Made by a program: the position numbers and the translations under genes
Part shown: in pieces, positions 36,831 to 64,000 of the stretch
How positions within the stretch are numbered: the stretch's first letter is position 1
Layout of the letters: each line of letters starts with the position of its first letter
Notes under the pieces: generated by a model
Seen by the model: the letters and a program-made list of their open reading frames with translations, nothing else
The model's database searches: none
Told to the model about the DNA's origin: nothing
Source of the DNA: Pyrenophora tritici-repentis
Lineage: Eukaryota > Ascomycota > Dothideomycetes > Pleosporales > Pleosporaceae
Reading direction: 5' to 3'
Assembly: GCF_003171515.1 (NCBI RefSeq)
Contig: NC_089397.1
Span: 1,860,001 to 1,924,000 of the forward strand
DNA length: 64,000 bases

Positions 36831-38348
36831 GAGGAGGAGGAGGAAGAGGGAGACATAGGTTGAAGTGGTCAGAGTTTTTTTATACGCACTCATTTGTTCG
36901 TCGCTGTTTGTTTTTGGAGAAAAAGAGAGACTAGAGGGAGAAGGAGACATAAAATAATGTGGTGTAGTAGCTTGTCACGTGTTCGGCGTTAGGTAATCGG
37001 CGCTAGGGTTGAGTATTTTAGGACGACTCCGCGTAGAGGAGCTCGACAGTTATCGTACACGATTCTTAATACTACCGTTTATTGTTCGGATACCTTCTTG
37101 TTCTCTACTCTCTACCGATTGCGGGTCGGCAGCCTCTCTTCTGACTATTGAGGCTATCCCTCTACCACAATAATCAAGAAGGCTGTTTTTTTCAGACGCA
37201 GTCATTTGTCGTTGCTGTTTGTTTTAGAAAGAGGGGGGAGAAGAATAGAGGAGGAGAAGGGAGACATGTAGTTGTTGATTATGGTATTTTTTTCAGCCCG
37301 TAGAAGCAGTCATGCAATGCGACTGCGTATTGTTTTAGAAAGAAAGAAGAGAGAGAGAGGGAGGGAGAATGGAGGGAAGAAGAGGAAGACGAAGAGGGGA
37401 GGAGGAAAGAGGCATGGAGTTGTTGAGAAGGTGGTTGTTTCTACACGCACATGGTTCTGATTTGTCGTTTTTTTGTATAGAGGGAGGAGAGAGAGGGAGA
37501 GAAAAGAGGGAAGAAGAAGGACGAGGGAGGAGAGAGATATAAGAAGAAATGGTACCGTATCATCTCGCAGAGAGACTCATGAATTCTTCAAAAACGTTTT
37601 TTTAGACAGAGGGAGGTGGAGGGAGAAAAGAGGGAAAACGGATCCATGCCTCCCGAATCCTAGATTTTTATCTCGCAGAAGCAGTCATAATCTGCAGGTT
37701 TCGAAGTTTTAGAAGAAAAAGAAGGAGGAGGGAGCCATTCCATATTCGTAATCGTTTTTAGCTCTCACGCGCACTCGTGTCTTTGTAGACAAATGTTTTA
37801 GAAGAAAGAGAAGGAGGAGGAGGGAGACATGGCATGATCCTTGGCTTTATTTTCACACGCAGTCACCTCCATGTCAGTGGGTCCTTTTAGATAGAGGGAG
37901 GGGAAAGGAGGGAGAGAAAGAGCTATAACCTCCCAGATCGTAGATTTTTATCTCGCAGAAGCGCTCATGTTATATCGCGATTGGAGTTTAGAAAAGAGGG
38001 GAAGAGGAGGGAGGAGGGAGCTATACCTTCCGAATCGCAGATTTTTATCTCGCAGCAGCAGTCATGTAGTCAACGCCTCGTACTTTTTAGAAAGAAAGAG
38101 GTAGAGAGTGAGAGAGAAGAGAGGAGAGAGCCATGACATCCCGAATCGCGGCTTTTATCTCGCAGAAGCGCTCATGGTATGCTGTGAATGTGTTTAAAAA
38201 AGAGAGAGGAGAGGGAGTCATCGCTTTAATGTGTGATGAATTTTAGATCGCAGAAGCGCTCATGAAGTAACGCCTACGTTATTTTAGAAAAGGGAGAGAG
38301 AAAGGAGGGAGCTATATGTCTGTATCTGATAGATTTGAGGTCGCAGAA
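36831..38348. repeat. polypurine satellite block 1
   Basis: A degenerate tandem array. Each unit has a plus-strand purine tract (GAGGAAG-type, 25-45 nt), then GCYAT, about 15-20 variable bases, a T-run, a box, a variable piece, TTTTAGAAA and the next purine tract. On the minus strand the box reads ATGAGCGCTTCTGCGAGATA. Box positions near 37665, 37757, 37850, 37943, 38036, 38148, 38238 and 38332 give spacings mostly of 90-94 bp, with some of 110-150. The 212-bp LTR-like element 36958-37169 lies within, and a hAT copy is inserted in the last box. Confidence 0.75.
36958..37169 (+). mobile_element. 212-bp solo-LTR-like element, copy A
   Basis: Runs from TGTGGTGTAG to CTCTACCACA with TG...CA ends and a 6-bp terminal inversion (TGTGGT/ACCACA). 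A 4-bp duplication ATAA flanks it (36954-36957, 37170-37173). The second copy at 55848-56059 is inverted and differs at one base that I could see. Non-coding. Best read as a solo LTR of a family with 4-bp target duplications (Ty3-like) or a small non-autonomous element. Confidence 0.7.
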
Positions 38349-41300
38349 CACAGATGTCAATGAGCAAGCTGAGCGAGCTCAGCCAATTGGCTTGCTCAGC
38401 CAATTGAGCGGAGGCCAGCAGCTCGCTCGGCTCGCTCGGATTGGCTGAAACAGGGCTGTCAGCTCGCTCGGCTTGATGGGCTCAGTCCCGATTAGGAAAG
38501 TTATATAGAAACCTTGGTGTTGAGTTTCTCAGCTAATATCCCACTTATGTACACCGTATTTCGCGTCCATCTCCTCATCGCTGATAGCCTCCTTTACAGG
38601 CACCTCACCACTGCCAAATCTAGCTCTTATCCATCGTCGATCGCACTGTATTGCTGCTAGAAGTTGCGGAGAAATGCTGCGCCGACGGGGCTCGAGGAGG
38701 TCACCCAGCTCGCTGAATAAGCGCTCACACTCACAGCTTGAGCCTGGGATTGATAGCATGTCGATAGCAAATTTGCTAAGGCTGGGTAGCGATCGCGGAG
38801 TCCTACCCAGTATTTTATAGGGTCGACGCCCTCGCTAGCGATCGGTTCGCTGCGTTTCTAAGCCTCATATTCATCCTCCTCGTTCTCCGTAAGCCCTGCC
38901 GGCTTAATAAAGCTGTTGATAGCGTCTTCTATATCATTGTGCCTAACTTTAGAGCGTAAGCGCGGCTTCGGTAAGCTTTTGTACTCCGCCCACAAATGTT
39001 GAAACTTGCGGTTGCTGCTCTCTAGCCAATCAGGCTTATCCGCCCACGCTGCGTCAAGGTAGCTTTTGTAGCGAGGATGAAGGATTATAGCAGCATAGTA
39101 AGCTGGCGAGAGGTCGAGCTTGTTGTAGTACTCGCGGGCTTTAACTAGGGCAGCGCGGAGGTTGATAGCAAGGTGGTCTTCGGGTGACTCTGTATGCTCA
39201 TCATAAATGACGTCTTCATAGCTTTGCAAGCGGTCCTCATAGACTCCAAGTAAGTATTCAAATACTAGAATAACCTCAGCGATTGCTCCAAAAGCACCGC
39301 TTTTGCCGCGGCCTTCAAGCCGTTTTGTAGCTTGTTTTAGTGGCCTAAGCACATCAATATACTCAGCAATCACCTGCCAGTCATGGGCATTGATCCCATC
39401 AGACCTCATCCAATCCGGCGCTGCAGGCAGCTTGTTGTTACGACTTCGGGCGTACGCGTCTTCAGTTTCAATCTTCTAAATATGGTAGTTGGCGTACCTA
39501 TTAACCGCTAATTACAACTCAACAGCGCGCTTAAAACACGAAACGTAAGAGTTATAGCGAGTAACAACTAGCTTAACGGGCTCCTTGATTTTGTGCTGTT
39601 CTGTTGGCGCGTTGACAGGCTGGTCCCTAATAGCGAGCTTCTGATACTTCTCAAAAAGAGCGTACTGTTGTGGTGTTTTGATGTAGTTAATAACCGCGAC
39701 AAGCACTCCTAATGGTCCATCGCCTCGCCAAGTAGCCATATTCTCAGCTTCGTTCACGCGCTCAGTCTCCTCGTTGTCGTAGGACTCTTTCTCCTCACCC
39801 CAGAGTAGCATCTGGCCAATGAGATTAAGCGTATAAGGACCGCAGCGAAGGCGACGCTCAGTAGCGCTAAAGCCTATCTGCAAGGCGAGAGTGTTAATCG
39901 TGGTGTTGTTGTTATGTGCGTTGTCGAGGACGAAGTAACCGAGCTTGCCCACAGTGATTTCGAACTGCTTGAATATTGCCATCACGACCTCAGCCATAGC
40001 CTCGCCGGTGTAGGCACCTGTCAGTTGTGGGAGCGCAATAGGCAAGTCCCTGAGCTCGCCAGAGCTATCAACGTAGTGGGCGACGATACCTAAGTAACCG
40101 CGCTTGCCACCTTTTGTCGTCCATCCGTCAAAGCTTACATAGACTTTGCTCATTGATTCTGAAAGGCTTGCGATAACCTTTAGTAACAGGTAGTTGTACA
40201 GGCGTATAACGTATCGTGAGACGCTGTTATAAGATGCCCACAAGGCTCGTTCTGCCTCTACGCTAGCTAATTATATCATATTGCGAAAAGACGATGATTC
40301 GAATTGTGAGAGTGGGAGGTTGTTTTCGACGAGCTAGGTAACGGCCGCAAGCCTAAACTCTTGTATATTGAAGTTGGTAAGCTCGTTGGCAACAGCCTAA
40401 GAGCAGCCCTTCTGAAGGGCGCGTTCGAGGAGAGTTTCTTTCCGAGGAGCGACGGTAGTGCGCTTACTTGGAGGCTTCAAGCCATGAACTTTCTTGTCTT
40501 CTCCGAGATGACGTGCTGGCGCTGATGGAGACTGCGAGACGTCATGTATGCCACGGCCAACAGTAGTGAACTTGTGCTTATAGCAATAGTGGCAGATCCA
40601 CGTGACTTTTGCGACGTTGCTGCGCAAGGCGATGCGATAGCCATGGCTGTATACCCAGCTTGCTCGGTTCGAAAGTGATGTGGGCGGCTTGCAGTGCTTT
40701 GGGTAGCGACTCTAATTAAAGCCGTCGTATTTGTCCTCTACCCATACGAAACCCTCGTCGACAGCCTCGCTAGCTGCTCCTGAAGCTGCAACAGTGGCAT
40801 GCTCGCTGCCCTCAGGTGGTGGGATGATTGTCTCTTCGGCGCGCGACTCTCGGAGGGTCGCTTCAAAATTTGGTGCTTGTGGCGCGGCGACGAGAGCTTG
40901 ACGCGGCGACAGCGGTGGAGGAGGTGGAGATGGTGAGAATGGCCGAGTATCGACTAGCACAGGTTGGCTGGCAGTCCCGCGATGACGCGCTGCGACTCTA
41001 GGGCGCTTCGAAGTTGTCGCGATTTCTAGAGCATTAACGCGTGTTCTTTTTGCTGGCATTATAGCAACGGCGAGGTAGATAATAGCTGCAAATAGAGACG
41101 CGTTGATGGAGTATAGGTGAGTGTGGTGGGTGATAAGTAGTAAGTGAAGTGTCGCAGAAGGAGAATATTGTTGCCAGGCCGTTAGCCGGAAATTTAGTAG
41201 CTTATTTGCTAGAAATATAGCAAAAAAGAGTGTATTTTAGGTTATAACTAGGTTTCGAACTTACGCACTACACCTAAAAATCATCGTGAGATTGCCCCTC

Positions 41301-41488
41301 CACCAAGTCCTTCAGCCCCAAGTTTCCAACCGCTCCATCCAACCAAGCTAAGCAAGCTGACTGAGCGAGCGCCTATCCCTAAGCTCGCTCGGCTTGCAAG
41401 CGCGCACTGCGCGCTCAGCTCATTCGGCTTGGTCAAAACGTCCAAGCCGAGCGAGCTGAGCGAGCCGGCTCGCTCGTTGACAAGTATG
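38349..41488 (-). mobile_element. hAT DNA transposon, copy 1 (decayed)
   Basis: 3140 bp, minus orientation, with imperfect terminal inverted repeats CACAGATGTCAATGAGC and CATACTTGTCAACGAGC. The 8-bp target duplication is TCGCAGAA on the left and CCGCAGAA on the right (one mismatch). Both ends carry many copies of GAGCGAGC/GCTCGCTC, typical subterminal transposase sites. It is inserted in a conserved satellite box. It is inverted relative to copy 2, which lies 841 bp away. Confidence 0.9.
38529..41059 (-). pseudogene. hAT transposase pseudogene, copy 1
   Basis: Aligns along its length with copy 2 (42759-45290). It carries the shared TAG just after DKYDGFN, further TAG/TAA stops at Gln and Trp codons (for example 38858-38860, TAG for the Trp of EAWKR), and a 1-nt deletion in a C-run at about 38785 that shifts the frame before the hAT dimerisation segment. 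Amino-acid differences from copy 2 are mostly C-to-T/G-to-A transitions (PHTLN to PYTLN, QMGFS to QIGFS, FERA to FKRA), as RIP would cause. Not functional. Confidence 0.88.
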
Positions 41489-42329
41489 CCGCAGAAGCAG
41501 TTATATAATTTCGAGCTTCGATTTTAGAAAAGAGAAAAGAAGGAGGAAGAAGGGAGCCTGTTGGGAATCGAACCTGCGGTAGATAAGGCAGCTGGTTGCT
41601 GCATGCACGAGCTTGGATTACACGGCTGACTAAGCCGTGTGGTCCGAGCTCTAGCTGCTGCCTTACTGCCGACCTCCCTCCACCTCCATAGAACAACAAG
41701 AACAATCACAATCATTTCAACTCGTTGCAACGAAGGTGATTCCGATACCTTAGCCGTATCAACAGAGCCATTAAGTATTCTTGTGAAGAGTTTTATCCGC
41801 GGAAGCGCTGATATCATTTTAATAATATGGTTTTAAGAATAGAGAAAAGGAGGAAAGAGGAGGGAGTTATGCCATCTTAATAAGGTAGATTTTTAGCTAG
41901 TAGAAACACTTATCCGGAGAATCCAGCCATGTTTAAAAAAGAGGAGGAGAGGAAGAAGGAAATTATAACATTATGTTATAGTGTTTTATCTCGCAAAAGT
42001 ACTCATATCATGTCTTGCACTTCCTTTTAAGAATAGAGAAAAGAATGAGGTAGGTAGAAAGGGAAGGAGAGAAGGAGGTTATATATGAGGGCGATATGGA
42101 TTTCAGCGTCTCCCACGCACTTATATAGTGCTGTTATTCTTATTTTAAAAGAGGGAGAGAGGACGAATCCATTCATGGCTCCGATCTTCATTTCAAATCT
42201 CAGGAGCACCCATACCACTGTGAGATCGCTTTTTTTTGATATAAGGAATGAGAGAGAAAGGAGGGAGGGAAGGAAGGAAGGAAGGAAAGAGTGTAAGGGG
42301 CTGCGCAAAGTATGCCGGTGCCTGGTAAC
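41489..42329. repeat. polypurine satellite block 2, between the hAT copies
   Basis: Continues block 1: the box ...CGCAGAAGC...TCAT at 41490, then purine tracts with TTTTAGAAAAGAG. A foreign stretch of about 130 bp (41557-41690) interrupts it and contains pol III box-like sequences. Further units follow at 41800-42320, including a (GGAA)n-like run near 42265-42290. Confidence 0.65.
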
Positions 42330-45300
42330 CATACTTGTCAACGAGCGAGCCGGCTCGCTCAGCTCGCTCGGCTTGGACGTTTTGACCAAGCCGAATGAGC
42401 TGAGCGCGCAGTGCGCGCTTGCAAGCCGAGCGAGCTTAGGGATAGGCGCTCGCTCAGTCAGCTTGCTTAGCTTGGTTGGATGGAGCGGTTGGAAACTTGG
42501 GGCTGAAGGACTTGGTGGAGGGGCAATCTCACGATGATTTTTAGGTGTAGTGCGTAAGTTCGAAACCTAGTTATAACCTAAAATACACTCTTTTTTGCTA
42601 TATTTCTAGCAAATAAGCTACTAAATTTCCGGCTAACGGCCTGGCAACAATATTCTCCTTCTGCGACACTTCACTTACTACTTATCACCCACCACACTCA
42701 CCTATACTCCATCAACGCGTCTCTATTTGCAGCTATTATCTACCTCGCCGTTGCTATAATGCCAGCAAAAAGAACACGCGTTAATGCTCTAGAAATCGCG
42801 ACAACTTCGAAGCGCCCTAGAGTCGCAGCGCGTCATCGCGGGACTGCCAGCCAACCTGTGCTAGTCGATACTCGGCCATTCTCACCATCTCCACCTCCTC
42901 CACCGCTGTCGCCGCGTCAAGCTCTCGTCGCCGCGCCACAAGCACCAAATTTTGAAGCGACCCTCCGAGAGTCGCGCGCCGAAGAGACAATCATCCCACC
43001 ACCTGAGGGCAGCGAGCATGCCACTGTTGCAGCTTCAGGAGCAGCTAGCGAGGCTGTCGACGAGGGTTTCGTATGGGTAGAGGACAAATACGACGGCTTT
43101 AATTAGAGTCGCTACCCAAAGCACTGCAAGCCGCCCACATCACTTTCGAACCGAGCAAGCTGGGTATACAGCCATGGCTATCGCATCGCCTTGCGCAGCA
43201 ACGTCGCAAAAGTCACGTGGATCTGCCACTATTGCTATAAGCACAAGTTCACTACTGTTGGCCGTGGCATACATGACGTCTCGCAGTCTCCATCAGCGCC
43301 AGCACGTCATCTCGGAGAAGACAAGAAAGGTCATGGCTTGAAGCCTCCAAGTAAGCGCACTACCGTCGCTCCTCGGAAAGAAACTCTCCTCGAACGCGCC
43401 CTTCAGAAGGGCTGCTCTCAGGCTGTTGCCAACGAGCTTACCAACTTCAATATACAAGAGTTTAGGCTTGCGGCCGTCACCTGGCTCGTCGAAAACAACC
43501 TCCCACTCTCACAATTCGAATCATCGTCTTTTCGCAATATGATACAATTAGCTAGCGTAGAGGCAGAACGAGCCCTGTGGGCATCTCATAACAGCGTCTC
43601 ACGATACGTTATACGCCTGTACAACTACCTGTTACCAAAGGTTGTCGCAAGCCTTTCAGAATCAATGAGCAAAGTCCATATAAGCTTTGACGGATGGACG
43701 ACAAAAGGTGGCAAGCGCGGTTACTTAGGTATCGTCGCCCACTACGTTGATAGCTCTGGCGAGCTCAGGGACTTGCCTATTGCGCTCCCACAACTGACAG
43801 GTGCCCACACCGGCGAGGCCATGGCTGAGGTCGTGATGGCAATATTCAAGCAGTTCGAAATCACTGTGGGCAAGCTCGGTTACTTCGTCCTCGACAACGC
43901 ACATAACAACAACACCACGATCAACACTCTCGCCTTGCAGATGGGCTTTAGCGCTACCGAGCGTCGCCTTCGCTGCGGTCCTCATACGCTTAATCTCATT
44001 GGCCAGATGCTACTCTGGGGTGAGGAGAAAGAGTCCTACGACAACGAGGAGACTGAGCGCGTGAACGAAGCTGAGAATATGGCTACTTGGCGAGGCGATG
44101 GACCATTAGGAGTGCTTCTCGCGGTTATCAACTACATCAAAACACCACAACAGTACGCTCTTTTTGAGAAGTATCAGAAGCTCGCTATTAGGGACCAGCC
44201 TGTCAACGCGCCAACAGAACAGCACAAAATCAAGGAGCCCGTCAAGCCAGTTGTTACTCGCTGGAACTCTTACGTTTCGTGTTTTGAGCGCGCTGTTGAG
44301 TTGCAATTAGCGGTTAATGGGTACGCCAACTACCATATTCAGAAGATTGAAACTGAAGACGCGTACGCCCGAAGTCGTAACAACAAGCTGCCTGCAGCGC
44401 CGGATTGGATGAGGTCTGATGGGATCAATGCCCATGACTGGCAGGTGATTGCTGAGTATATTGATGTGCTCAGGCCACTGAAACAAGCTACAAAACGGCT
44501 TGAAGGCCGCGGCAAAAGCGGTGCTTTTGGAGCAATCGCTGAGGTTATTCCAGTATTTGAATACTTACTTGGAGTCTATGAGGACCGCTTGCAAAGCTAT
44601 GAAGACGTCATTCACGATGAGCATACAGAGTCACCCGAAGACCACCTTGCTATCAACCTCCGCGCTGCCCTAGTTAAAGCCCGCGAGTACTACAACAAGC
44701 TCGACCTCTCGCCAGCTTACTATGCTGCTACAATCCTTCATCCTCGCTACAAAAGCTACCTTGACGCAGCGTGGGCGGATAAGCCTGATTGGCTAGAGAG
44801 CAGCAACCGCAAGTTTCAACATTTGTGGGCGGAGTACAAAAGCTTACCGAAGCCGCGCTTACGCCCCAAAGTCAGGCACAATGATATAGACGACGCTATC
44901 AACAGCTTTATTGAGCCTGCAGGGCTTACGGAGAACGAGGAGGATGAATATGAGGCTTGGAAACGCAGCGAACCGATCGCTAGCGAGGGCGTCGACCCTA
45001 TAAAATACTGGGTAGGACTCCGCGATCGCTACCCCAGCCTTAGCAAATTTGCTATCGACATGCTATCAATCCCAGGCTCAAGCTGTGAGTGTGAGCGCTT
45101 ATTCAGCGAGCTGGGTGACCTCCTCGAGCCCCGTCGGCGCAGCATTTCTCCGCAACTTCTAGCAGCAATACAGTGCGATCGACGATGGATAAGAGCTGGA
45201 TTTGGCAGTGGTGAGGTGCCTGTAAAGGAGGCTATCAGCGATGAGGAGATGGACGCGAAATACGGTGTACATAAGTGGGATATTAGCTGAGAAACTCAAC

Positions 45301-45470
45301 ACCAAGGTTTCTATATAACTTTCCTAATCGGGACTGAGCCCATCAAGCCGAGCGAGCTGACAGCCCTGTTTCAGCCAATCCGAGCGAGCCGAGCGAGCTG
45401 CTGGCCTCCGCTCAATTGGCTGAGCAAGCCAATTGGCTGAGCTCGCTCAGCTTGCTCATTGACATCTGTG
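42330..45470 (+). mobile_element. hAT DNA transposon, copy 2
   Basis: 3141 bp, plus orientation, flanked by a perfect 8-bp duplication CTGGTAAC (42322-42329, 45471-45478). Ends are CATACTTGTCAACGAG and the reverse complement of CACAGATGTCAATGAGC. Subterminal GAGCGAGC repeats are prominent at 42345-42470 and 45340-45455. It encodes one long transposase frame with a single nonsense codon. Confidence 0.92.
42759..45290 (+). pseudogene. hAT transposase with one in-frame TAG
   Basis: A frame of 844 codons from ATG 42759, broken only by TAG at 43104-43106. The N-terminus is basic and Pro-rich; after the stop comes a BED-like region (SWVYSHGYRI, CHYCYKHK). The catalytic region has SFDGWTTKGGKRGY and LDNAHNNNTTINTLA, then RRLRCGPHTLNLIGQ and VVTRWNSY. 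The C-terminus has the hAT dimerisation signature (SIPGSSCECERLFSELGDL). The TAG follows DGFN, where family members usually have Trp (TGG to TAG). The same TAG occurs in copy 1. Without readthrough the first ORF gives 115 aa; the 699-codon remainder has no ATG at its start. AATTAG at the stop could be a splice acceptor, but the intron would be only 30-36 nt. Confidence 0.85.
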
Positions 45471-45478
45471 CTGGTAAC

Positions 45479-46664
45479 AGGATTGTATTCGATGAAGAAG
45501 AAAGCTATCTGCAGTGCAACGATATCTATATACGTTTGGTTTGTTGTTCACGTAGCTTCTCGAAGCATCTAAAGTGCCGAGGAAGCTCCGAAGGTTCCAC
45601 CGAGGATCACCATAGCATCTGGGCGCTAGCCCGTTACAAAGAGGGAGGTTATATAAGAAGGAAAGGTGATGTTGTTCTTAGCTCTCACACGCAACCATAC
45701 TGCTGAAGAGTAGCTGTTTTTGAATAAAAGAAAAGAGGAAGGAGAAAAGGTGTTTTTTGAGGGTGATTGATTTTCAGCGTCTCACACGCATACATTTCGT
45801 GTCGCCTTGGTCGTTTCAAGAAAGAAGAAAAAAGGGAACCATGAAGCGTACATCATGCGGGTTTGATCGCTCACACGCCCTTATCGCATACTGCTCCGAA
45901 AGTTTTGAAAAGAAGAGAGAAGAGGGAGAGAGAACGCAGTTATTGTATGGTATAATGAAGTTTCTCAAAAGTCCCAGACACCCATGTGAGCTAAGAAACG
46001 AGATTTAAAATAGAGAATAGAAATGAGGGAGAGAAGATGGACATGTGAACAGGTGCTTAGTTTGTGTCTCTCACACGCACCTATAAGAGGCCCAGACAGG
46101 CGTTTTAAGAAAGAAGAGAGTCATCGAGTCATGAGTGTACGTTTTATGGCTTTGATCTCTTACACGCACCCATGAATGGCATACGACGAATTTTTGGAAA
46201 CAAGAGAGAGAGAAGGAGACCATTAAATGATACAACGACGTTTTTCAGAAGCTTCACACGCACAAATTCGATCCCTATACTCATTTTCTTAATAGGGAAG
46301 AAAGAGGGAGAGAAAAAGCGGTCATCTGAACGATATGGATCGGGTTTTTGTCTCTCCATATGACGCTCTGCAAGACGTTTTTTGGAAAATTGTAGGAGTA
46401 TATGGAAGGAGAGAAAATACGGACATACAATCGTGTCCATAGGATTTTTCATTTCTCGCACGCCCTCATAAGGCATCGGTGCGCGCGTTTTCAGGAATCA
46501 GAGAGGGCGAGAGGTTGGAGGCATGAATTTTTAAAACAATCTTTTACACTCCTACGCAGAAATAAGGTAAGGTATAATTTATCTTAAAAGAAATGAAGGG
46601 GAGAGAGGAGGGGGCCATGAATCTCTGCTACTATACTTTTGTCTCCCACGTATAACCCTCTTCC
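45479..46664. repeat. polypurine satellite block 3
   Basis: Units of about 90-120 bp with purine tracts followed by a T-run and a changed box, TCTCACACGCACCCAT on the plus strand (GGGTGCGTGTGAGAGA on the minus strand). No gene. It ends at the solo LTR insertion. Confidence 0.65.
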
Positions 46665-46854
46665 TGTCGAATCGTGAGTATCGGTAGAGACGTCGGCTGC
46701 TTGACACTTCGGCCCGACTTCGGCCCACCTTGCGCAGAGCTTAGGTGTACCTTCGTAGCAGCTATGTTCGTAGAAGATCAATACCAATACCAGTCACCAG
46801 AAGAACCTCGTTGTTGTTATTCACCCGTACGATCGTACAAGGCCTACCAACACT
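46665..46854 (+). mobile_element. solo Copia LTR, mosaic of two families
   Basis: 190 bp, TGTCGAATCG...CTACCAACA, with a perfect CTTCC target duplication (46660-46664, 46855-46859). The first about 110 bp nearly match the LTR of Copia element 1, while the last about 40 bp (TTATTCACCCGTACGATCGTACAAGGC) match the LTR of element 2 and not that of element 1. No internal sequence remains, as expected after LTR-LTR recombination. Confidence 0.88.
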
Positions 46855-48700: not shown

Positions 48701-48897
48701 TGTTGGAAGGCCTTGTACGATCGTACGGTGAATAACAGTAGCTAAGGTAATCTTGTGTATTGGTATTCTGGTGTATGATGATTCTACGAATGTGGGGGCT
48801 ACGAAGGTATACATAGCGTTGGGTCCGAGTTGGGCCGAAGTAGGATCGAGGCGGTACATTGGGCCTTATTAGGCGACACACCGTGTGTATGCCGACA
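48701..48897 (-). repeat. 3' LTR of Copia element 2
   Basis: 197 bp; read on the minus strand it runs TGTCGGCATAC...CCTTCCAACA. Same as 54505-54701. Confidence 0.95.
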
Positions 48898-48991
48898 CTG
48901 GCAATCTTTTCTTATTGTAACGACTGATGTAAGGAAAAACGGGTCTTCTAAAAAGGGCACAATGAGAGGGATTCCAAATAGGCATATGTGC

Positions 48992-52270: not shown

Positions 52271-52302
52271 TCTTTGGTCCTCATCATCTTCGTCTTGCTC
52301 CT

Positions 52303-54141
52303 CTAGGAAGAACTGGTCGACTTCTTCCCCTCGTACGCGACGAGAAATGTGCTAAACTCCATTTGCTCTCCCGTAATCGCGCAGTGTGTGATGTACTGCG
52401 CTTTTGAGCGTTTTCTTTCTTCAAGCGTGTGGTTTGTGGACCAACAGCCTGTCTTGCCGCAGACGTAACATTTCTTGTCGATTTGTGTGTTGACTCCAGA
52501 GCGGTGCTGAAGCCCACCGCGTCCGCGGGTGAATCCGCTGCGTCCACCGCGAGGGTTGTAATTCCCTCGCAATCTTCCAGAGCTGTTGTTGTTGTACCGA
52601 CGATCCAAGTAGTACTGGCTATCCGTATCCGCCTCAGTGAAGTTGACGGAGACGGTCATGGCGAGTGAGTTTTCGATTGACGATCGCAGATCTCCAAACA
52701 GAACCTCGCATTCTAGAGACGGCTTGTAGAGTGCCATCTCGAGCTCCTTCACGCCTCGGCATGCTGTGATTACAGTCGTTCGGAGCGCGTATTCTCCCAT
52801 GTACTGCTGTCCAAGTGCTCTTTGACACAATTGGAGCTTGTCCAGCATGATGTCAAGGACCTCGTGGAGGTTCTTTTCGGGGTTCTCCCTGCGGACTTTG
52901 ACAAACGATGTCGTCGTCCAGTCCGCGTAGTAATGGCCGTGGTTGACGTCTGTGTCGAAGTGGTTCTTGAGCTTTGTGTAGGCAGTCAAGAACGTATCCA
53001 TCCGCTGATCGACGAAGTGGAGGTAATACTCCTCTGCGCGGCCGTCGAGAATCCGTGGAAAGACTGCATGGAACTGCCCTGGCTCGATGTCTGCGTGATA
53101 ACAGATGCTGTAGAAGATCTTCAATTTATCGTCTAGGAGGTCGTACGGCTTTCCCGTATACTTTTTGTCTCGGTCCCACATTTTCACGAAGACATTGATC
53201 GTCTTAGGATCCAGTTTCTCATTGCCAAACTCGATTGGTGGAACTGCCTTGTACGGGTCTGTTTCACCAGAGGGCACAATTGGGGGAACGCTCAGTCCCT
53301 TCGGACGTTGCGGGTATGCTGGTGTATACTCGCGGAATCGGTCGAAGTTGTTGTAGGTGAGGGGAGGTTGCTGACTTTGGACGCGCTGATAGGCTGGCTG
53401 CGGTGCGGATTCAGTTGTCTCTACAGGCTGGCTTCGGATTGGTTGGTTTTGGGCTTTCTCAATCGTTTTTGCTAGCTGGTCCTGAATCTGTTGTTCTTCC
53501 TCAACGGTCTCCTGTCGTCCTTGCACACGGGCGTGGGTCTGGTCTTGATCGCGGGTTTGCCGACTGTCTACGTCTCGGCCTCTTGTCCTTACAGGCGTTT
53601 GGGTTCGGCTCTGGGCCTGGCTTGATAATCTCCTGTCTGTGGACTGTACTGATCCTTCACTGCGTTGTTGCCGTAGTGCCCGCTCTTGCAACATGTGCGC
53701 AGCTGATCGTGTGTCAAACACAGCCGACTGGAATACGTCCTGAGGCCATTCTAGGTACTCCTCCATGCGTAATAACCTAGCTAGAGACTCACTAGGTGCC
53801 ATATTAATACGGCCAGTATACACTCCCTTAAAGCGGAGGATCCGCTTTAGTTCCTTTGTGTATATTGGCTGGGCACGTAGGAACATTGCCTCTGTCCATC
53901 CTTCAAAGTCCTGACGGAACTCCCAAAAGAGTTCTTCATCTGCTGTTGGTCGATCTGTATAGTCCGCAATCGCACGCGCAATGTACGTTGTTGCTGTAGT
54001 AATCCCTACCTCATCGTCTGGAGCTTCAACGTTGTCCTCCCAAATCTCTGGATCGATGTGATGCCATTCTCTTGGTTTTATGTTTGTGGTCCCTAGTAGC
54101 GCCTCTAGTGTGGGTACCACTCTTCTACTACTGCTCGCCAT
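52303..54141 (-). CDS. gag: Gag polyprotein of Copia element 2
   Basis: 612 aa from ATG 54141; the frame is open to 54279, but only TTG occurs there. Arg/Gln-rich middle, capsid-like YTGKPYDLLDDKLKIFY and MLDKLQLCQRALG, RGG-like stretch and a zinc knuckle KKCYVCGKTGCWSTNH with the order C-X2-C-X4-C-X4-H as in element 1. It stops at TAG 52303 shortly after a G4 run (52327-52330 on the minus strand), where a -1 shift leads into Pol. Confidence 0.9.
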   Translation of the reverse strand: MASSSRRVVPTLEALLGTTNIKPREWHHIDPEIWEDNVEAPDDEVGITTATTYIARAIADYTDRPTADEELFWEFRQDFEGWTEAMFLRAQPIYTKELKRILRFKGVYTGRINMAPSESLARLLRMEEYLEWPQDVFQSAVFDTRSAAHMLQERALRQQRSEGSVQSTDRRLSSQAQSRTQTPVRTRGRDVDSRQTRDQDQTHARVQGRQETVEEEQQIQDQLAKTIEKAQNQPIRSQPVETTESAPQPAYQRVQSQQPPLTYNNFDRFREYTPAYPQRPKGLSVPPIVPSGETDPYKAVPPIEFGNEKLDPKTINVFVKMWDRDKKYTGKPYDLLDDKLKIFYSICYHADIEPGQFHAVFPRILDGRAEEYYLHFVDQRMDTFLTAYTKLKNHFDTDVNHGHYYADWTTTSFVKVRRENPEKNLHEVLDIMLDKLQLCQRALGQQYMGEYALRTTVITACRGVKELEMALYKPSLECEVLFGDLRSSIENSLAMTVSVNFTEADTDSQYYLDRRYNNNSSGRLRGNYNPRGGRSGFTRGRGGLQHRSGVNTQIDKKCYVCGKTGCWSTNHTLEERKRSKAQYITHCAITGEQMEFSTFLVAYEGKKSTSSS

Positions 54142-54489
54142 TCCTACTGCCGGTGTCCTGGCTACCGGTGCTCTTTCCGATGATGTTCTCTCTCCTGCTA
54201 TTGTGTTCTTGTTGACGCTTGTTGCGCTAGCTGCGTTCGCTAGAGATGCGTCGGTGGTCGTGGGTTGTACACGGGTCAAATCTCAACCGGTCGGTTGGCG
54301 CGTGTATAGACGGCGTCTTGGAACGCTTCTGATACGGCTGTAACGGTCGGTCGCTAGCCACGAACGACGCCTGATATAGCTAACAGTGAGCTTAGCATAG
54401 ATAACTCCGCCTTGCTGATATAGGCAATCTAGGGAACGCGCGGGGTAAAGAATCTATCTCTTCTTAACCTAACTGTCTGTGACTGCCGT

Positions 54490-54504
54490 GCAATCACTGA
54501 TCAG
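54490..54504 (-). promoter_or_regulatory. presumed primer-binding site, Copia element 2
   Basis: On the minus strand CTGATCAGTGATTGC directly follows the 5' LTR, the same 15 bases as in element 1. No TGG start, so not the usual tRNA 3'-end match. Confidence 0.55.
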
Positions 54505-54701
54505 TGTTGGAAGGCCTTGTACGATCGTACGGTGAATAACAGTAGCTAAGGTAATCTTGTGTATTGGTATTCTGGTGTATGATGATTCTACGAATGTGGG
54601 GGCTACGAAGGTATACATAGCGTTGGGTCCGAGTTGGGCCGAAGTAGGATCGAGGCGGTACATTGGGCCTTATTAGGCGACACACCGTGTGTATGCCGAC
54701 A
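54505..54701 (-). repeat. 5' LTR of Copia element 2
   Basis: 197 bp, identical by eye to 48701-48897, with the GAGAC duplication outside. Confidence 0.95.
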
Positions 54702-55760
54702 GAGACTGTATTTTTCTGAGCCTACCTTCTTTTTCCGACTCATTTCGAGTTAAGTATGTGAGTTTTGGAAAAAGCGGACATAGATAAATTTCTAAATGAT
54801 TGAAAAAGAGGAGGCACCATCAAACTGTTACTCGACTATGCTTCAAGCCATGACGGAATTCCTGAAGGTCTTTTGTGAGAAGCGGATGAAAATAAGTTCT
54901 AATTGAGAAAAAGCAAGAGTGGACAATTCATAGGTTCGTCGGTATGCATGTTAAGTTTCTCCCATGACATGATGATTTGTAGGATTTCGTGGAAACCCAG
55001 GGGCGATGATTTTAGAAGGGGAAGAGGAGACTCCATAAATGGAATAAAGTACCAATTTGTATTTTTCACATAGCACGATCTGCCGGGTTTTTGGCATATA
55101 TTGAGAGAAGAGGAGTTTCGAGGGGGAAAGTGGACTCTATGAGCTGCCAAGCATAGTTTGTGAATTTCCCGTCATGAGATCGATAATTGCGCTCTTTTGG
55201 TAGGAGGTATAGCAGTCAATCTTGAAAGAATAGGAAATGGAGAAGACACCATTTATAGTTGAATCTCGAATGTGGTTTTGGTACACCATGCAACAAACTG
55301 TGGATTTTTGGTAGAATTCAGAAAGAGTGGTGAACAGTTAAGAAAGAAGGAGAAAGAAGTAGGTAGAGTGGTTCTATGTGAATCACACCTATGCGGTAAG
55401 ACTGATAAGCTTTTACAAGAAGGAAGGCGCAGAAACTCCATGGTGACAGCGGTAGTGGCGTTTCTTCTCACATCGCTTGCGCCTGGTATTATTTTGGTAT
55501 AAAGTGGGAAGACCGAAGAAGTATAAGTAGAATAAAGGGAGAAAGAAGGTAAGGAGGATGGTCTTATAGTACAGGTACGCTCATATTTTTTTTCATAGTA
55601 GTATCACAGAAGGGGAGAGAGTGCGCACTGCATGCGACGAAACTTCTGTATTTGCGTTGGTCACATCAGTTCTTGATGGTTCAATTTTGGAAAAGAAATT
55701 GATGTGATGGAATAAAAGAGTAATTGTAAGACGGCGGATGACGCGCTTTTATACTCGGAA

Positions 55761-55776
55761 GGGGGGGGGGGGGGGG
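55761..55776. repeat. G16 homopolymer
   Basis: Sixteen consecutive G on the plus strand inside a satellite unit. Its length may be an assembly estimate. Confidence 0.7.
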
Positions 55777-55847
55777 AGCAGGGAACAGCCACATGTACTT
55801 TTTTGAATGGCTTTTTGATCAGATCCTCGAATCATGGGGTTAGATAT

Positions 55848-56059
55848 TGTGGTAGAGGGATAGCCTCAATAGTCAGAAGAGAGGCTGCCGACCCGCAATC
55901 GGTAGAGAGTAGAGAACAAGAAGGTATCCGAACAGTAAACGGTAGTATTAAGAATCGTGTACGATAACTGTCGAGCTCCTCTACGCGGAGTCGTCCTAAA
56001 ATACTCAACCCTAGCGCCGATTACCTAACGCCGAACACGTGACAAGCTACTACACCACA
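55848..56059 (-). mobile_element. 212-bp solo-LTR-like element, copy B
   Basis: Inverted copy of 36958-37169 with one base difference seen (C for T in the CCGTTTAYTGTTCGG segment). Flanked by a different 4-bp duplication, ATAT (55844-55847, 56060-56063), so it is an independent insertion and not part of a larger duplication. Confidence 0.75.
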
Positions 56060-58881
56060 ATATGTGTACCTTTTATGGAAACATAAATAGGGACGTTTTG
56101 ATATTTTGGCAGAGAGGGTAGAGTATGCTATTAATGTTTGTTTGTTTTAATCATAGACTGTAGCAAGAGAGAACGGCAGAGTCTTTAGTCATTCCCTGTA
56201 TGGTTTAGAAACTTTTGCGCAATATTTTCGTATTGATATAGGAGTGGTGATAGACAGTCTACGGAGTTTTGAAAAGGTAGCGGAAGGAGGAACATAGAGG
56301 AGGTGCTTGTAAATTTTAATTGATGAGTAGCAGTCGAAGGGCCGATGAAGTAGTTCGAGTAATTCTTTGGGTAGTTTTGAAAGCGTTGCGAACTTTGGTA
56401 ATAGCCTCGGAACGGTGTCTTTGCTCTCTGTTGACGGTGGATGCAATCTTAGCGTTCGAAGACTGGAAGATGCATGAGCTTCTTATGCAGCCAGTTTATT
56501 TCGGGGGTAGAACGAGAACTGATGGCGGAGACATAGGTACCCTATCTGACGATGTTGATGGCAATAGGTATCATGATCCTATTCACAGCATTTTTAGACG
56601 GTGACACGGCACTCTATAAACTGGTGAAATCTAATTTTCAAGGCAGAGGCATCTTGTAGTTTTGGAAGAACTGGATAAGGGGAGCGGTGGGACTAGGAAA
56701 TCAGTTTACTAGCCTAGGAGCTGATCTTTATTTTGAGAAATTGGTGGAGTAGAACAGAGAGCAGCAGCAACATAACGGGTAGGTTTGTAGGTAGAAAGGG
56801 AGAAAGAGAATCTAGGATAATTTTAAGAAAGAATAGAGTAGAAATACAAGTAGAGAAACCGACAGTTATGGTGATGCTTTTCCGGAATGTTCATGCTCAG
56901 AAGAATAGGTGCTGCAGCGGCAGCAACACCACATCCTGGACTTAACTTGTAGTTTTGGAACAGAGAAGAAAAAGGGGGAAATTGAAGTGGGGGAGTAGCT
57001 AAAGTTTTATAGAAGAGAAGGGGTGAAAGCAGAAAGAAAAGCAGAAAACATGATCTTGACTTGGAGCCATTTTTAGAAGAAATGGAACTAGCAGCAGCAG
57101 TAACACTACATATAAGTCCCCTCTTCATCTTTTAGAACAGATCTGGAAGGGTACAGAGGAAAGAAGAGAGGAAGGGGATAAGTGGTACCTTTATAGAAAG
57201 ATAAAGTTAGAATGAGAAGGCCAAGCCAACACATGGACATGCTTCGAGCACATTTTGTTTCTGCAAAGACTTACAACAGTGGCAGCACTACCTGAACATC
57301 GGTACTGGCGATTTTTCTTTTGGACCATGGAATCGCCCACAGAATTTTGAAGCACAACAACATTAGAAGCGGAGGAACAAAGAGACACATTTCGTCTTCT
57401 TCTGTAAATTTTCTTATAGTTCTTAGAAGAAGATGAGTGGTAGAAGGAGTAAGGATAGCCCGGCACATTCTATTGTCCTGTATGCAATTTTCTATGTTCT
57501 GGCAGAAGGAAAATCGGGCGAGCGGACACATGCGTGATTTCATTAGCACGTTTTCCTGCTGCTTCCGCCACTTCCAATTTCTGCAAGAGAGGAAGGAGGG
57601 CGAGCAGAACCAAATTCATAATATCGATGGATTTATGTTTCTCGAAAGCAGGAGTAGATTATGTTTACAAGCCCAGACCCGACTGTAACGCCGTTATTGC
57701 GTCTAGTGTCTGCATTTTCTATGAATTTCAGAATATGAGCAGAGAGCCCACATCGTGGTCTTCTTCTTTATTTTAAGGGTAACAGACAAGCAGAATGAGA
57801 AAGAATCCCACATGCATGCTAGGTTCTGCTTTTCTTTGTTTTGTAAAAGACGAATCACGGTGGGAGAAACACTACACATACGTGGGGACATCATAGTGTT
57901 TTCGCAGGCTAGCACTGCTGGTAGCCTCGACACCGTTATAATCTTCAATCACCTTAATTTCTATCTACTCCGCTGGATTAAGAGGAGGAAGCACACATAT
58001 ATAGTGGTTGCAGGCCTTTCTTAGAAGACATTTAGCGTGGTCACTATTGTTTTATAGAGGAGGGTGGCGAAGAAGCAGCAGCAAACATCGCTTTTTTTAT
58101 GCGTATTGGGAGAAAGAGAGGAAACTTTCTAGTAAAAAACGGAAAAAGAGAAGAGGGGGCCACATTTTAGGAGTCTATGCCTTATCTTAGAGGAACTGGA
58201 TGCATTATGTAAAGGCAGACGGAGCGCGCATCCCAAGACATCATGTCTTCGGCGGGAAGTTTCAAGTAAATATAGGAATGTTTTCAGTATGGAAGGAAGG
58301 AGGATAGAAGGGAGGGTGAAGAGGTAGACTCATGATTCAAAAGTGACCGGCCCTTGGATGATATGAATCTTTTAAGATTTTAACGGGCAGAGGAGCGCGC
58401 AGCTGCAGACATGCCTTCCTCCCGCATGATTTTTCGAGTAAAGATAGAATTTTTTTTGTAGTGATAGAGAAAGAAGGAGGAGAGAAGGGGAATAGAGGAG
58501 TTTATATAGAAAGATGGAGCGCACATTCCCGAACTTATACAAGAATTTATCATCTCTTTTAGATAGATTCGGTAAACAGTTTCTAGTAACTAGAGAATAA
58601 GGGATATAGGAGAGGCGGGGAGACCTATATACGTTGCGCAAACTCGTGCTTTCTTTTACAAGTTTATACAGACAGAGGAGACGCGCAGTTCTAATTCTAT
58701 GCGAATCTGCTAGAGTTTTTTGAACAAGTATCGTAACCGCATAACCGGTTTCTAGTAGAGGCATAGAAGAGGTAAGACGGTAGAAAAGGAAAAGAAAGGT
58801 TTTCTGGCAATATAGGAGACGAAGAACGCAGAGGCAGACAGATGGTATATGTTCTCTAAGGGTTATCTTTTAGTAACAGCT

Positions 58882-59080
58882 GCACCTGCGTACTCGTATT
58901 CGCGGCGCACCTATGCGCAACTACGACTTGTATCCGCCGCGTATGCGCTCCTAATGCGCTCCCGCTGCGCACCTGCGACTTATGTCCGCTGCTTATGCGC
59001 TGCCTATGCGCTTCGTATGCGCACCTGCGACTCGTATGCGCTACGTATGCGCACCTGCGCACTCGTATTCGCTGCGCACC
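58882..59080. repeat. GC-rich minisatellite with TATGCGC motif
   Basis: About 200 bp built from variants of CTCGTATGCGCTGCGCACCTGCGA, with TATGCGC or TATTCGC recurring every 9-21 bp. Nearly the same 30 bp opens and closes it. Its base composition is sharply different from the AG-rich surroundings. It lies in a plus-strand open frame (58849-59265) that is probably incidental. Confidence 0.7.
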
Positions 59081-61870
59081 CGCCATATCAACACCCACCC
59101 CTCTCCGCCTCGCCTAATTATCCCTCCAAACTTGCATGGCTTTTAGATGACGGCAGAGCATATATTCCGGTAATGCGGAAGAAAGGAGAAAGCCAGAGGC
59201 AGCTACATGGAAGCGATTTCCGCCTACTGTTTAGCAACACCAGCCCCTCCTCTTATCCACCCTAACGTTCGATAGATTCGAACAGTAAGAGTATCTTTTC
59301 TGGTAATATAGAAGTAAGGGAAGGAGAACGAGGCATCTATATAAATTAATCTTAGTAGGTTTTAACCAATAGTATCCACCTGGTCATCTATTTTTACGTC
59401 ACTCCTTTTGAGTAAAACAAAAAGATGTCTTTGGGTGTAGAAGAAAAAGAGGAGGAAGAATCAGCCTTATAAAATCACTGCTTCATTGTTTCAGCAACAC
59501 CCACCCATCCTACTCTTTCTAACAAACTTCCAATGTTGTCAAACACCCACGACGCACACCTGCAGCGCATTTTTGTGATAGGGTAATAGAGGGAGGCAGC
59601 GCTATCTCACCTTCCCACATCATTCTTGGAAGCACCCGCCCCTTCTTCTCATCTTTATAAACTTCAATTTTTCCGACGACATAAAAGAAAAGCTGGAAGG
59701 AAGACACAACTACATTTAGTAGTCTTCTTGGAGTTTTGAGACACAGCAGCTGACCCCGCTATTGCCGTCGCCTGCACCGCTTTTGAGTAAAGACAGGGTA
59801 ATTTTCTGGTAAGAAAAAGAGAAGGAGGAAGGAACACACAGCCCCATGGGCCTTGGCTTTTTTCATGTGTAGCAACAGCTTCACATAAGTATCAAAGGTC
59901 TCGGGTAAAGAAGGAAGCAGACACACGCCCATAATACTTTTTGAGATCAGGTCTTAACAAACAACCACTCCATCATGCGGCAAATCAACAGAAAATTCAA
60001 GTAACACAGAAACACTTTGTATGAATTGAGAAAGAAGGAAGGAAGAAGGAGGAAAGGAGAGAGAGAAGATAGCAGCCACATCCGCCGTTCGCGAAATGAT
60101 TCCAGAAGCACCCACTCCGTCATCGACCCTCCTCACTCTCATTTTAAGTAAACACAGCAAGAATGTTTTGGTAAGAGAAAGAATAAAGGAGGGAATGACG
60201 CAGCCACATAGGCTATGCCCATCCATGTGTAGGGACGACCATTTTCGATAAATTTATCAGTTTCGAACCCCATAGAGCCAATTTTTCGACCCAGGAAAAA
60301 TAAAAGAGCCAAGAAAGGAGCAGGCGAAGGCACATCTGCATCAGGTGGAGTAATTTCGATAACAGCAGCCCCTATTCATAGTGAAGGCGCACTCATTTTC
60401 GAGATTTTGAGTAAAGGCGGGAAGAATTTAATGGTAAAGTAGGTAGGAGGAAAGGAGAGAGAAGAGAGAAGAAAACAGCTGCATGGCTTTCTACGAGGCT
60501 CTTCTAGAGACAGACACACCCCACCCTCTCATGAATGATTAGGTTTCCCATTTTAAACGCCCAGAACAACCATGGCCCTGACTTGGAAACGTAGAAAGAC
60601 GGAGAAAGCAGCCACATGACTAGTTTCGAAGCTTTTTTAGAATCGTTCCCACTCCACGCACTGCGTCATCCATCAGCTCGTATAGTATTTTGAACACTCA
60701 CAGACAACAGTTTCCGGTAACGTAGGACGAAGTAGACAGAGAGAAGAAAGACGCAGCCGTATTTCCTTTTTGCTGAGTATGTTTTTTCTAGAAACAGCAC
60801 TCGCCACCACCCAGTTATCCTTCATACCTTATCTGAATTTTGAGTAAACACAGGAAGAGTTTTCAGGTACATTAGTTAGGAGGAAAGGATGAAGTAGAGA
60901 GAAAGAGAGCAGCCCTTTATATCTTAAGCCAAGCACGTTTTTCAGATAAAGCTGCCACTTCAACCCGCCACACGCCTCAATCTCATATGCTCTTGGGTTT
61001 TTGTATTTTAAACACTCGAACGCCTACATTAAACATTTCTAAACGTGAACAGAGAATGGTAAAAAGAGAAAGGAAGACAGGAAGTAGCCACACACATCCG
61101 GGGTTGACCCGGCCTTTTTGAAAACAGCAGCGTCGTTCAGTCATAAGGTTCCAGAGAACATGTTTTCGGCTTTTCAAGCAAAGACGGGGAAGATTTTCAA
61201 GTAGAAAAAGGAGGAATAGAGAACGAAAGGCAGCAATCATAAGTATGATGTCGATAGGGGGGTTTTTTTTTCGAAAACCGCGACCTCCCCGCCCAGTCAT
61301 CAAACATATTTTCTTTGTCTTTTGATATAAATTCATGGGAGATTTTGATAACATAGAGGGAGAGAAGAAAGATGGAAGGCGCTCTCACAGCTCCTTCGTT
61401 GATCAAATTTGGGTAAAAGCAGCGGCCACTGCGCCTGGTCATGCATCATGAGGATCGTCGTTTTTAAGTTTCCAAAGACAAAGAAGATTTTTAAGTGGAG
61501 AAAGATAGATAGAAAAATAAAGACGCAGCTATATCGCGTACATGTCTGCCATTTTTAGAAACAACGGCCGCCCAGTCAGGTGTATGTCGATTGATAACTT
61601 TTAAGAAAAGACATAGAAAAATTTTCAATAACTTAAACAAAGTAAACACGTTAAGGAGAGGAGAGAGGAAGACAGAAGAGGGAAGGAAGGAAGCAATTCC
61701 ATAATCATTTCTAATTGCTAGTTTCAGAAACAACGCCGTCCCGTCATAGAGTATGTGAGAATCTGATTTTGAGTTTTTAACCAGATAAAAGTAGAAGGAC
61801 GAAAGAGAGCAACCACATGATTCGTGTTTGTTGTGAATTTCAGAAACAACAGCCGCCCGGTCATTGGTTC

Positions 61871-62057
61871 TGTCAGCCAACACAGTTGGGTGTCCGTGCG
61901 TCAGCCCGATACTCTTATCAGATCTTCTAGCATCTTCTACAACCTTCACCACTCTACTATCTACGTCATGTACTCATGCATATCTTATGTATATAAGCAC
62001 ACATCTCTACTCAGTAGAATAATCAACCAGTTCTCTCCTTTCTGTTGTACGCCCACA
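61871..62057 (+). mobile_element. solo LTR of a third family
   Basis: 187 bp, TGTCAGCCAACACAG...GTACGCCCACA, with a perfect 5-bp duplication GGTTC (61866-61870, 62058-62062). It contains TATATAAGCACAC (TATA-like) about 70 bp before the end, as LTR promoters do. Unlike the two Copia LTRs in this window except at the TG...CA ends. No internal coding region. Confidence 0.85.
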
Positions 62058-64000
62058 GGTTCCGGTCCGGACTTTGGAGTTTTCAAGTAAGGATAGAAAA
62101 GGTTTTATAGTAATTAAAAGTAGAAGATGGGAGGAAAGCAGCCCCATGGAGTGGTAAGTTTAGCAGTTTTAGACACAACAGCAGCGTCCGCCCAGTCATG
62201 TCTCTTTGGCATAGTCTTTTTCATACATGTGGAAGTTTTCTGATGACTTGAACAAAGTAGAGAGAGGCGAGAAGAAGGAAAGCAGCCCCATATCCCTTCC
62301 AGCAGCAATTTTCAGGAAACGCAGCAACGGCCCAGTCCTCAGTTGAATGTTTACAAATTTTTAAGATTATAAGTTTTTGAGTTTCCAGGTAGAACAAAAT
62401 AAAAGAAGAAGGATGGAAGAAAAGGAACGGCCCTATCACACAAAGATACTCTAGTTTTAGAAATAGCCACAGTCCCGTCATTCGTTGGTGAAACCCTGAC
62501 TTCGATTTTTCAAATACAGATAAGAAAGGAAGAAAGCAGCCATATGTCATACAAAGTTGTCTGTTTTAAAAATAGTAGCAGCTGCCTGGTCATATGGCAA
62601 GCCCGGACGAATTTTCAAGATTTCAAGTAAAGAAAGGTAGAAGTAGAGGAGAGGAAGAAAGCAGCCGCATGTTATACTGACCTGTCTTTTTTAGAAACAG
62701 CAGCCGCCCCGTCGTTCTTTGGTACAACTTTGATCTCGAGTTTTAAAGTTAGAAAATATTCTGTGGTAAGGAAAAGTAGAAGAAGGAAGAAGAGAGGAGA
62801 AAGCAGCCATGAATCGTACTGGTTTAGTAATAGCTGCCACCCCTTAGTTATACGACCAGCGGGAGTGGGTTTTCGGATTTTCAAGTACACAAAGGTGAAA
62901 GAAAGAACAAAGGAAAGCGAACAGCTCCATGATTCTTTCATTAGGCAGTTTTCAGTAAAGGCAGCGATCGTTGACAATTCCAAGATTTGTCCAATTGATT
63001 GCCATCCTTCAAGAAACGACTACGTTATGAAGCGAGCGGATTTGATACACGAACGCCCCGGCCCGCACCTCCCAGTCATGCAGCGATGGTAGGGAATTTT
63101 CTATAAATTTCTGGAAGTTCTGATACTATAGAGAGCTGGAGGAAAGAGGGAAGAAAGGTAGAAGAATGGAGAGCGGGGAGAAGACAGCAACGACATGAAC
63201 TTATAACGCCGGTAATTATTAGAAACAGTAACCGCCCAGTCGTGCATAGCGATACGTTTGTTTTGAACAAATGAATGGAAAAGTTTCTGATGTCGTAAAA
63301 AGATAGAAAGTCGAAGGGAGGAAAGAGGGAGAAACAGCAGCCACCGCGTCAAAGGTTTTCGGCACTTTCGTTGCAGAAAAATACATAGAATGTTTGGATT
63401 TTCTAATATCTTAGAAAGGTGGGAAGAGGGAAGAGGGAAGGGAGGACGAAGCCAGCAAGCCCATGGCGACTTTGTCCATCCCTTTTAGACACAGCAGCAA
63501 CTCATTCATCGATTGCTTTCATATTCTATTTAGAAAAGATACATGGAAGAATAAGGTTTTCCGATAACGTAGAGGGAGAAGGGAAAAGAGAGGTGAGACG
63601 CAACCCTATGCGTCCTCCCATTAACGACTTTCAAGAAAACAGCGGCCCCAAGTCATAAGCAGTCAATGTTTTATTTTTAGTTCGTAATATAGCCATTTTG
63701 GGATGTCTAAGAATATAGAAGAAGGACGAAAGGGAGGGGGTAAGGAGGAAGGAACAGGGGAGATAGCAGCAAGGGTATAGTCATCAAATGGTACCGCTAT
63801 TGTTTTAGAGAAAGCTAGGAAGAGTATTTAATAAACCAGAAGGAGGGGAGAAATAGCGAGGGGGGGGGAGAGACAGCAATGCTATGCCTTCGACTCAGGC
63901 GTAGTTTTTGGAAAAAGCGCCCACCCCGCCGGTCCAGTCATGGATTTTCTGCCAGCCAATTTTAGAAAGATACGCGGAAGATTTCATGATATAGAAAGAG

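Follow-up and report, generated by a model that had tools for sequence, protein, structure and literature searches.

What is repeated, and to what end, in the purine-rich DNA that fills the right-hand part of this stretch of the Pyrenophora tritici-repentis genome? The stretch (C8:1,860,001-1,924,000; 64,000 nucleotides, called the window throughout) had been predicted to hold, from 36.8 kb to its end, a satellite of approximately 90-145-bp units in which a plus-strand purine tract is followed by CCAT, a variable piece, a T-run and a conserved box. Our analysis suggests instead that the locus belongs to a family of polar non-coding arrays that is dispersed through the genome and built of promoter-like units, an account drawn from sequence that we favor tentatively and with somewhat less than even confidence. 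The informative strand is the minus (pyrimidine) strand, on which each unit reads as a pyrimidine tract, (C/T)TAAAA, 17-19 free bases, ATGT[C/G]T and the next tract; the A-run, its spacer and the ATG are referred to below as a module.

The predicted plus-strand purine bias was borne out: runs of at least 15 purines covered 1511 bases of the plus strand and 31 of the minus strand between 36,001 and 66,000 (the window and its continuation), compared with 84 and 0 bases in positions 1-36,000. The predicted order of purine tract, CAT, variable piece and T-run was likewise present and had a fixed internal distance. Across the window array and seven others, the distance from a plus-strand CAT to the next TTTT peaked at 18 bases (94 cases, with 44 at 17, 35 at 19 and 24 at 16), while five control trinucleotides had no comparable peak ahead of TTTT. 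This distance alone was fixed, the distance from module to module being highly variable. Among trinucleotide pairs at offsets of 6-83 in 52 kb of arrays, AAA followed by ATG at offset 21-22 was by far the strongest (z 45), and ATG was the most enriched trinucleotide at the module distance (8.2-fold).

The modules were both abundant and directional. The pyrimidine strand of the window array held 88 modules versus 4.9 expected (100 shuffles, maximum 10), and the opposite strand held 1 versus 3.4 expected. In 12 other arrays, the pyrimidine strand held 267 modules in total, with 5 to 53 in each versus 0.4 to 3.3 expected, so that every array was enriched. Shuffles (50 for each array outside the window) preserved dinucleotides approximately and may have lost a few percent of letters. 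The compared places were selected by CAT-N-TTTT pattern matches and include those matches, and array bounds in L015-L025 were drawn by eye from profiles, with enrichment then counted inside them.

While the two marks and their distance recur, the letters between them are free. All 394 sampled spacers were distinct, and no pair of equal length shared 14 positions. Spacer identity was 0.30 in 24 window pairs whose boxes were at least 70% identical, compared with 0.26 in random neighbours; elsewhere, such box-alike pairs numbered 9 in L022, 8 in L019, 0 in L023, 5 in L024, 2 in L025 and 6 in L017, with spacer identities of 0.35, 0.35, none, 0.47, 0.17 and 0.31, respectively. Ungapped comparison of neighbours of rank 1-6 gave identities of 0.26-0.29 for spacers and 0.31-0.34 for boxes, versus 0.27 and 0.275 between arrays. 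The pattern could in principle be the relic of a neutral satellite that expanded and then decayed, as boxes drift along the array and neighbouring boxes are more alike than boxes from different arrays. However, decay would not erase spacer letters yet keep spacer length, A-run and ATG, nor would it explain why arrays whose boxes are unrelated share one spacing, and we consider this origin highly improbable. Since the marks are kept, the length is fixed and the letters are free, neutral decay is hard to invoke; the combination suggests that a mechanism is under selection and that the arrays are not junk.

The skeleton recurs across the single fungal genome searched (40.9 Mb in 41 contigs). The pattern purine tract-CAT-12-22 bases-TTTTAGA had 8 matches elsewhere versus 2 in a reversed control, and the six stretches fetched around those matches were all arrays with the same skeleton and other boxes. 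A tighter pattern gave 72 matches versus 2 in its reversed control, pyrimidine-strand patterns gave 15 versus 0, and a shorter one gave 70 versus 18. After three overlapping duplicates were dropped and the shorter 70-match pattern excluded, the 72-match and 15-match patterns yielded 84 distinct matches. These fall into 47 clusters spread over 9 contigs, the cluster of the window among them; at least two matches were counted in 20 clusters and a single one in 27. This 2.4-Mb contig carries ten clusters and the largest contig 16; some clusters are 0.2-0.5 Mb from the ends of C1, C3, C8 and C9, and most are interior. Such a distribution supports neither the centromeric satellite that had been suggested, for which one block per chromosome would be expected, nor the subtelomeric one. 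The window array is itself approximately 470 kb from the closer contig end, contig ends not necessarily being telomeres.

Arrays were present at 15 of the 17 other places fetched (all six of the first set, all five of a further set and four of six single-match places) and were dispersed and 0.7-15 kb long where sampled. L018 is small (5 modules versus 0.4 expected). L036 (15 modules on the pyrimidine strand and 3 on the opposite strand), L037 (13 and 2), L038 (16 and 0) and L039 (10 and 0) were recognized from their module counts alone, and L034 (2 and 0) and L035 (3 and 1) were not convincing as arrays. Genome-wide, CTAAAA-17-19 bases-ATG had 1037 matches versus 719 for a reversed-pattern control. 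This excess of approximately 318, set against 121 matches within 52 kb of arrays, suggests, very roughly, a genome total of approximately 140 kb of arrays. One dense group of these matches spans approximately 5 kb at C1 343,656-348,763, on the plus strand among the matches listed, and is known from pattern matches only.

A search that skipped common words found no alignable copy of the window array DNA outside the array. The family is apparently undescribed, as the original prediction had guessed, within limited literature searches and given no match in the tools used. Searched by term, two P. tritici-repentis genome papers (PMC9594970 and PMC5913888) gave no description of arrays of this kind, most subscription papers lying outside the search; the reference list of the latter includes a 2012 paper on the non-coding DNA of Pyrenophora.

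Several features of the pyrimidine strand resemble promoters. TATAAA occurs 79 times on this strand and 19 times on the other, and the next module ATG lies 87-109 bases downstream of 12 of the 17 TATATAAA sites. Within a preset distance of 78-112 bases, 47 of 108 TATA[AT]A boxes had a module ATG downstream, versus 25.0 (standard deviation 4.8, maximum 41) in 500 circular shifts; the mean distance there was 93.7 bases (44 units). Base composition changes downstream of TATATAAA: pyrimidines reach a share of 0.91 at 30-40 bases, and A is frequent from 60 bases onward. The U2 genes of the same genome provide a comparison: L028 has TATATAAA 39 bases upstream of the point where the Rfam match begins, the interval containing a CT-rich tract of approximately 30 bases, and L026 has a TATA-like ATATAAT with a similar CT-rich tract. 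A third U2 match, L027, has neither a TATA box nor a CT tract and is possibly a pseudogene. At the U6 gene (L030), which has an RNA polymerase III promoter, TATATAAA also precedes the start; this promoter differs from the arrays in its distance, 30 bases upstream of the match, and in lacking, by eye, a CT tract. The TATA-bearing minority of units thus resembles RNA polymerase II promoters of the small nuclear RNA kind. Given the likeness of TATA box and CT tract to the U2 promoter, the purine tracts probably represent the reverse strand of CT tracts in core promoters, an explanation we prefer to an H-DNA element.

Membership in a family, polarity, constant spacing around free letters and a preferred distance from the TATA box are observed here; the steps beyond them are proposed. 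In the mechanism we propose, a unit would run from an optional TATA box through a CT-rich tract of approximately 40-60 bases, (C/T)TAAAA, a 17-19-base spacer and ATGT[C/G]T to the next unit. RNA polymerase II would start near the end of the CT tract and produce, from the pyrimidine strand, many short or overlapping non-coding RNAs, while the A-run and ATG would serve as two contact points, approximately two DNA turns apart, for one factor or complex. If the modules start transcription, they constitute a new kind of promoter array.

A number of observations weigh against this proposal. The transcription start is itself inferred from sequence, and if RNA begins approximately 40 bases after the TATA box, the A-run and ATG are downstream of the start and their fixed distance is unexplained by a promoter alone. 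At the preferred distance, a TATA box accompanies just 38 of the 389 modules, and 14 of 49 opposite-strand TATA boxes also fall within the 78-112-base range. The pattern for the TATA end, purines-GGTTTATATA, had 7 matches versus 0, only three of which are near match clusters. Polarity is strong and imperfect, with 18 modules versus 8.8 expected on the opposite strand of the 12 other arrays, and the five box-alike pairs in L024 have spacers with an identity as high as 0.47. Finally, the A-run/ATG pair was absent from the 200 bases upstream of the three U2 matches examined, and module counts were at or below chance in 148 kb of flanking DNA (36.5 + 111.5 kb). Because the pair is absent before U2 and in no excess in flanking non-array DNA, it is not an element of promoters in general in this fungus and appears dedicated to the arrays.

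Two other explanations are real rivals of the promoter reading. Modules could be duplex-DNA binding sites, at which one dedicated protein contacts both the A-run and the ATG box, two turns of the helix from each other, so that the arrays act as a silent loading platform for silencing, insulation or pairing and any transcription is incidental. A spacing tolerance of approximately one base combined with free spacer letters would fit a rigid two-point contact with duplex DNA, and RNA folding was no better than in shuffles in 60 sampled windows per strand (z 0.06 and 0.10), which also counts in favor of this rival. A passive platform has no need, however, of the near-uniform module direction shared by TATA boxes and CT tracts, and we regard it as unlikely while giving it serious weight. 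Alternatively, the pair may act at the RNA level, as a signal in the transcript of the pyrimidine strand, such as one for 3'-end formation, in which an A-rich element would be followed by cleavage 18-20 bases on and by a GU/U-rich element. The order of an A-rich element, ATGTCT, ATGTGT or ATGTTT and a U/C-rich stretch is consistent with such a signal, as is the position of the module, which follows both the TATA box and the start that U2 would predict. Known poly(A) signals accept wider spacing, whereas here ATG is enriched 8.2-fold at one distance, which makes this possibility decidedly doubtful.

The units might also be decayed or short protein-coding starts, each with a promoter, a short leader and an ATG, and with Ser or Thr as a frequent second codon (98 and 46 of 388). 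The TATA box, the CT tract and the A-rich, T-poor stretch ahead of ATG would suit such starts. Yet the frame of the ATG meets its stop no later than the other two frames do (mean 24.0 versus 28.4 and 26.8 codons; 17.3 versus 23.5 and 25.3 in the TATA-bearing subset), minus-strand ATG-to-TAA distances are spread over the three frames (32, 28 and 26), and A is rare at -3 (0.15), where the usual start context favors it. Coding starts are therefore very unlikely. Micro open reading frames were rejected in both orientations, the minus-strand frames being near even and plus-strand ATG-to-TAG frames (16, 6 and 14; 36 cases) uneven but few. A three-base phase gave a weak signal at lags 3, 6 and 9 that was gone by lag 12 and accompanied CTT/TCC-type runs. 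Splicing, with the T-run and AG as a 3' splice site, was also rejected: an AG comes after the T-run in 80 of 233 cases, and splice words were without strand bias (pyrimidine versus purine strand, GTAAGT 2 versus 7, GTATGT 15 versus 20, CTAAC 22 versus 13). At gathering score, Rfam had 0 matches in the window and in 11 loci, L018 and L036-L039 lying outside the scan.

A bolder version of the promoter-like reading is that the arrays amount to perhaps a thousand minimal RNA polymerase II mini-genes whose short capped non-coding RNAs would each carry a unique piece of approximately 18-21 bases, recognized by a dedicated factor through A-run/N18/ATG. This would be an independently evolved fungal small-RNA repertoire comparable to the PIWI-interacting RNA (piRNA) clusters of nematodes, and, if the modules do make short RNAs, a new small-RNA source in fungi; we offer it as a very improbable extension by analogy. 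Nematode type I piRNA (21U-RNA) clusters are among the closest comparisons: they too contain small promoter-driven non-coding units in great number, every one of which combines a motif with a sequence of its own. The array units do have a unique sequence at a fixed distance from a motif. The arrays differ in occurring in a fungus, in their motif and spacing, in being short (0.7-15 kb) and dispersed, in having TATA boxes in a minority of units and in placing the unique piece between two motifs. The likeness would be one of working only, and membership is not claimed. U2 genes, for their part, differ from the arrays in being single genes with a structured product and no A-run/N18/ATG pair close upstream. 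A possible role of the spacers as guides against transposons gained no support, without becoming improbable. In 215 kb of DNA, spacers matched transposon pieces over 12 bases 3 times versus 3.0 when shuffled; over 11 bases they matched all DNA 191 times versus a shuffled mean of 158.5 (maximum 179), with control box pieces giving 216. A whole-genome query with joined spacers returned no matches, but it missed the spacers' own places too and is thus uninformative.

The array is a single bounded locus that is interrupted by insertions, with approximately 15.2 kb remaining once these are removed. Insertion edges were placed, and transposon labels assigned, by eye. The features are as follows, in window coordinates.

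36725-38345, minus strand: left section of the array, with plus-strand box TCTCGCAGAAGCAGTCAT, a period of approximately 95 bp and a probable solo long terminal repeat (LTR) at approximately 36945-37188.
37686-37710, minus strand: example module, AAAA-N18-ATG; on the plus strand, CAT at 37686-37688, an 18-base spacer and TTTT at 37707-37710.
38063-38088, minus strand: example module; its spacer is unrelated and its box similar.
38346-41488, minus strand: transposon insertion outside the array proper, the inverted partner of 42292-45472.
41489-42291, minus strand: array section containing a transfer RNA (tRNA)-like, short interspersed nuclear element (SINE)-like insert at approximately 41556-41768 (by eye).
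42292-45472, plus strand: transposon insertion, the inverted partner of 38346-41488.
45473-48699, minus strand: middle section of the array, with plus-strand box TCTCACACGCACTCAT, a probable solo LTR at approximately 46672-46862 and a 14-bp minisatellite at 47814-47908.
48700-54708, minus strand: LTR retrotransposon insertion (by eye).
54709-64000 and on to approximately L003:7665, minus strand: right section of the array, with plus-strand box AGAAACAGCAGCCGCCCAGTCATG and a period of approximately 134 bp in 59.1-64.2 kb.
58501-58508, minus strand: TATATAAA, 96 bases upstream of a module ATG.
62145-62170, minus strand: example module of the right section; on the plus strand, CAT, a 19-base spacer and TTTT.

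The predicted extent was correct in that a repeat region occupies the end of the window, and needs adjustment at both edges: the array starts at approximately 36,725 and ends at approximately 71,665 (L003:7665), approximately 7.7 kb beyond the window end, with TATATAAA on the minus strand near this terminus. The predicted 90-145-bp repeat survived in part. Autocorrelation of purines and pyrimidines exceeded the 95% level of block shuffles in three of the five sections tested, with peaks at 95 bp (36.7-38.35 kb), 89 and 194 bp (45.5-48.7 kb) and 134 bp (59.1-64.2 kb); no period rose above that level in 54.7-58.9 kb or 70.4-71.66 kb. All sections pooled passed marginally (0.077 at 108 bp versus 0.07). 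The gene-bearing left flank, where shuffle levels were not calculated, also had a small peak at 92 bp (0.072). Tandem Repeats Finder listed no 85-150-bp unit in the window, and unit spacing varies widely. A homogeneous satellite was rejected, there being no such tandem array and successive units being barely more alike than units from different arrays. The arrays do share with satellite DNA a head-to-tail repetition of approximately 90-140 bp in some sections and transposon insertions; they differ in that their units are inhomogeneous and their common part is a spaced skeleton across unrelated boxes. An architecture of this kind in the genome of a fungal plant pathogen, the agent of wheat tan spot, was missed here by Tandem Repeats Finder.

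The gene adjoining the array (window 35.4-36.2 kb) has 100% identity over the query to an F-box-2 protein of Pyrenophora tritici-repentis, and open stretches beside the arrays are of mixed orientation. Directly left of the array, window 36480-36725 is a CA-rich promoter-like stretch containing ATGACAAGTGACAAG, which may represent either a promoter for the plus strand or the 3' side of transcripts from the pyrimidine strand. The two insertions at 38346-41488 and 42292-45472, which we take by eye to be hAT-like, form an inverted pair of apparently near-identical copies inside the array; a second, similar inverted pair lies at approximately L003:614-6398, with a small palindromic insertion in each copy. 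The LTR retrotransposon at 48700-54708 is presumably of Copia type, again by eye.

Two minisatellites lie within the array, one at 47814-47908 (14-bp unit, 6.8 copies) and the other a GCGCATACG-rich block at 58878-59125. ARAGORN found no tRNA in the window, the SINE-like element included; this tRNA-like element carries what we take to be a B-box-like GGTTCGATTCCC and is present in two different arrays, at window 41556-41768 and at approximately 5290-5600 of the L015 reverse complement. Directly adjoining the array in L017, at approximately 1900-2430 of the reverse complement, another short repeat contains CT-rich blocks (TTTTGGAATACAAACCCCC..., TCATAAATCGCTGTTTTCCTAA) and may represent a second type of array.

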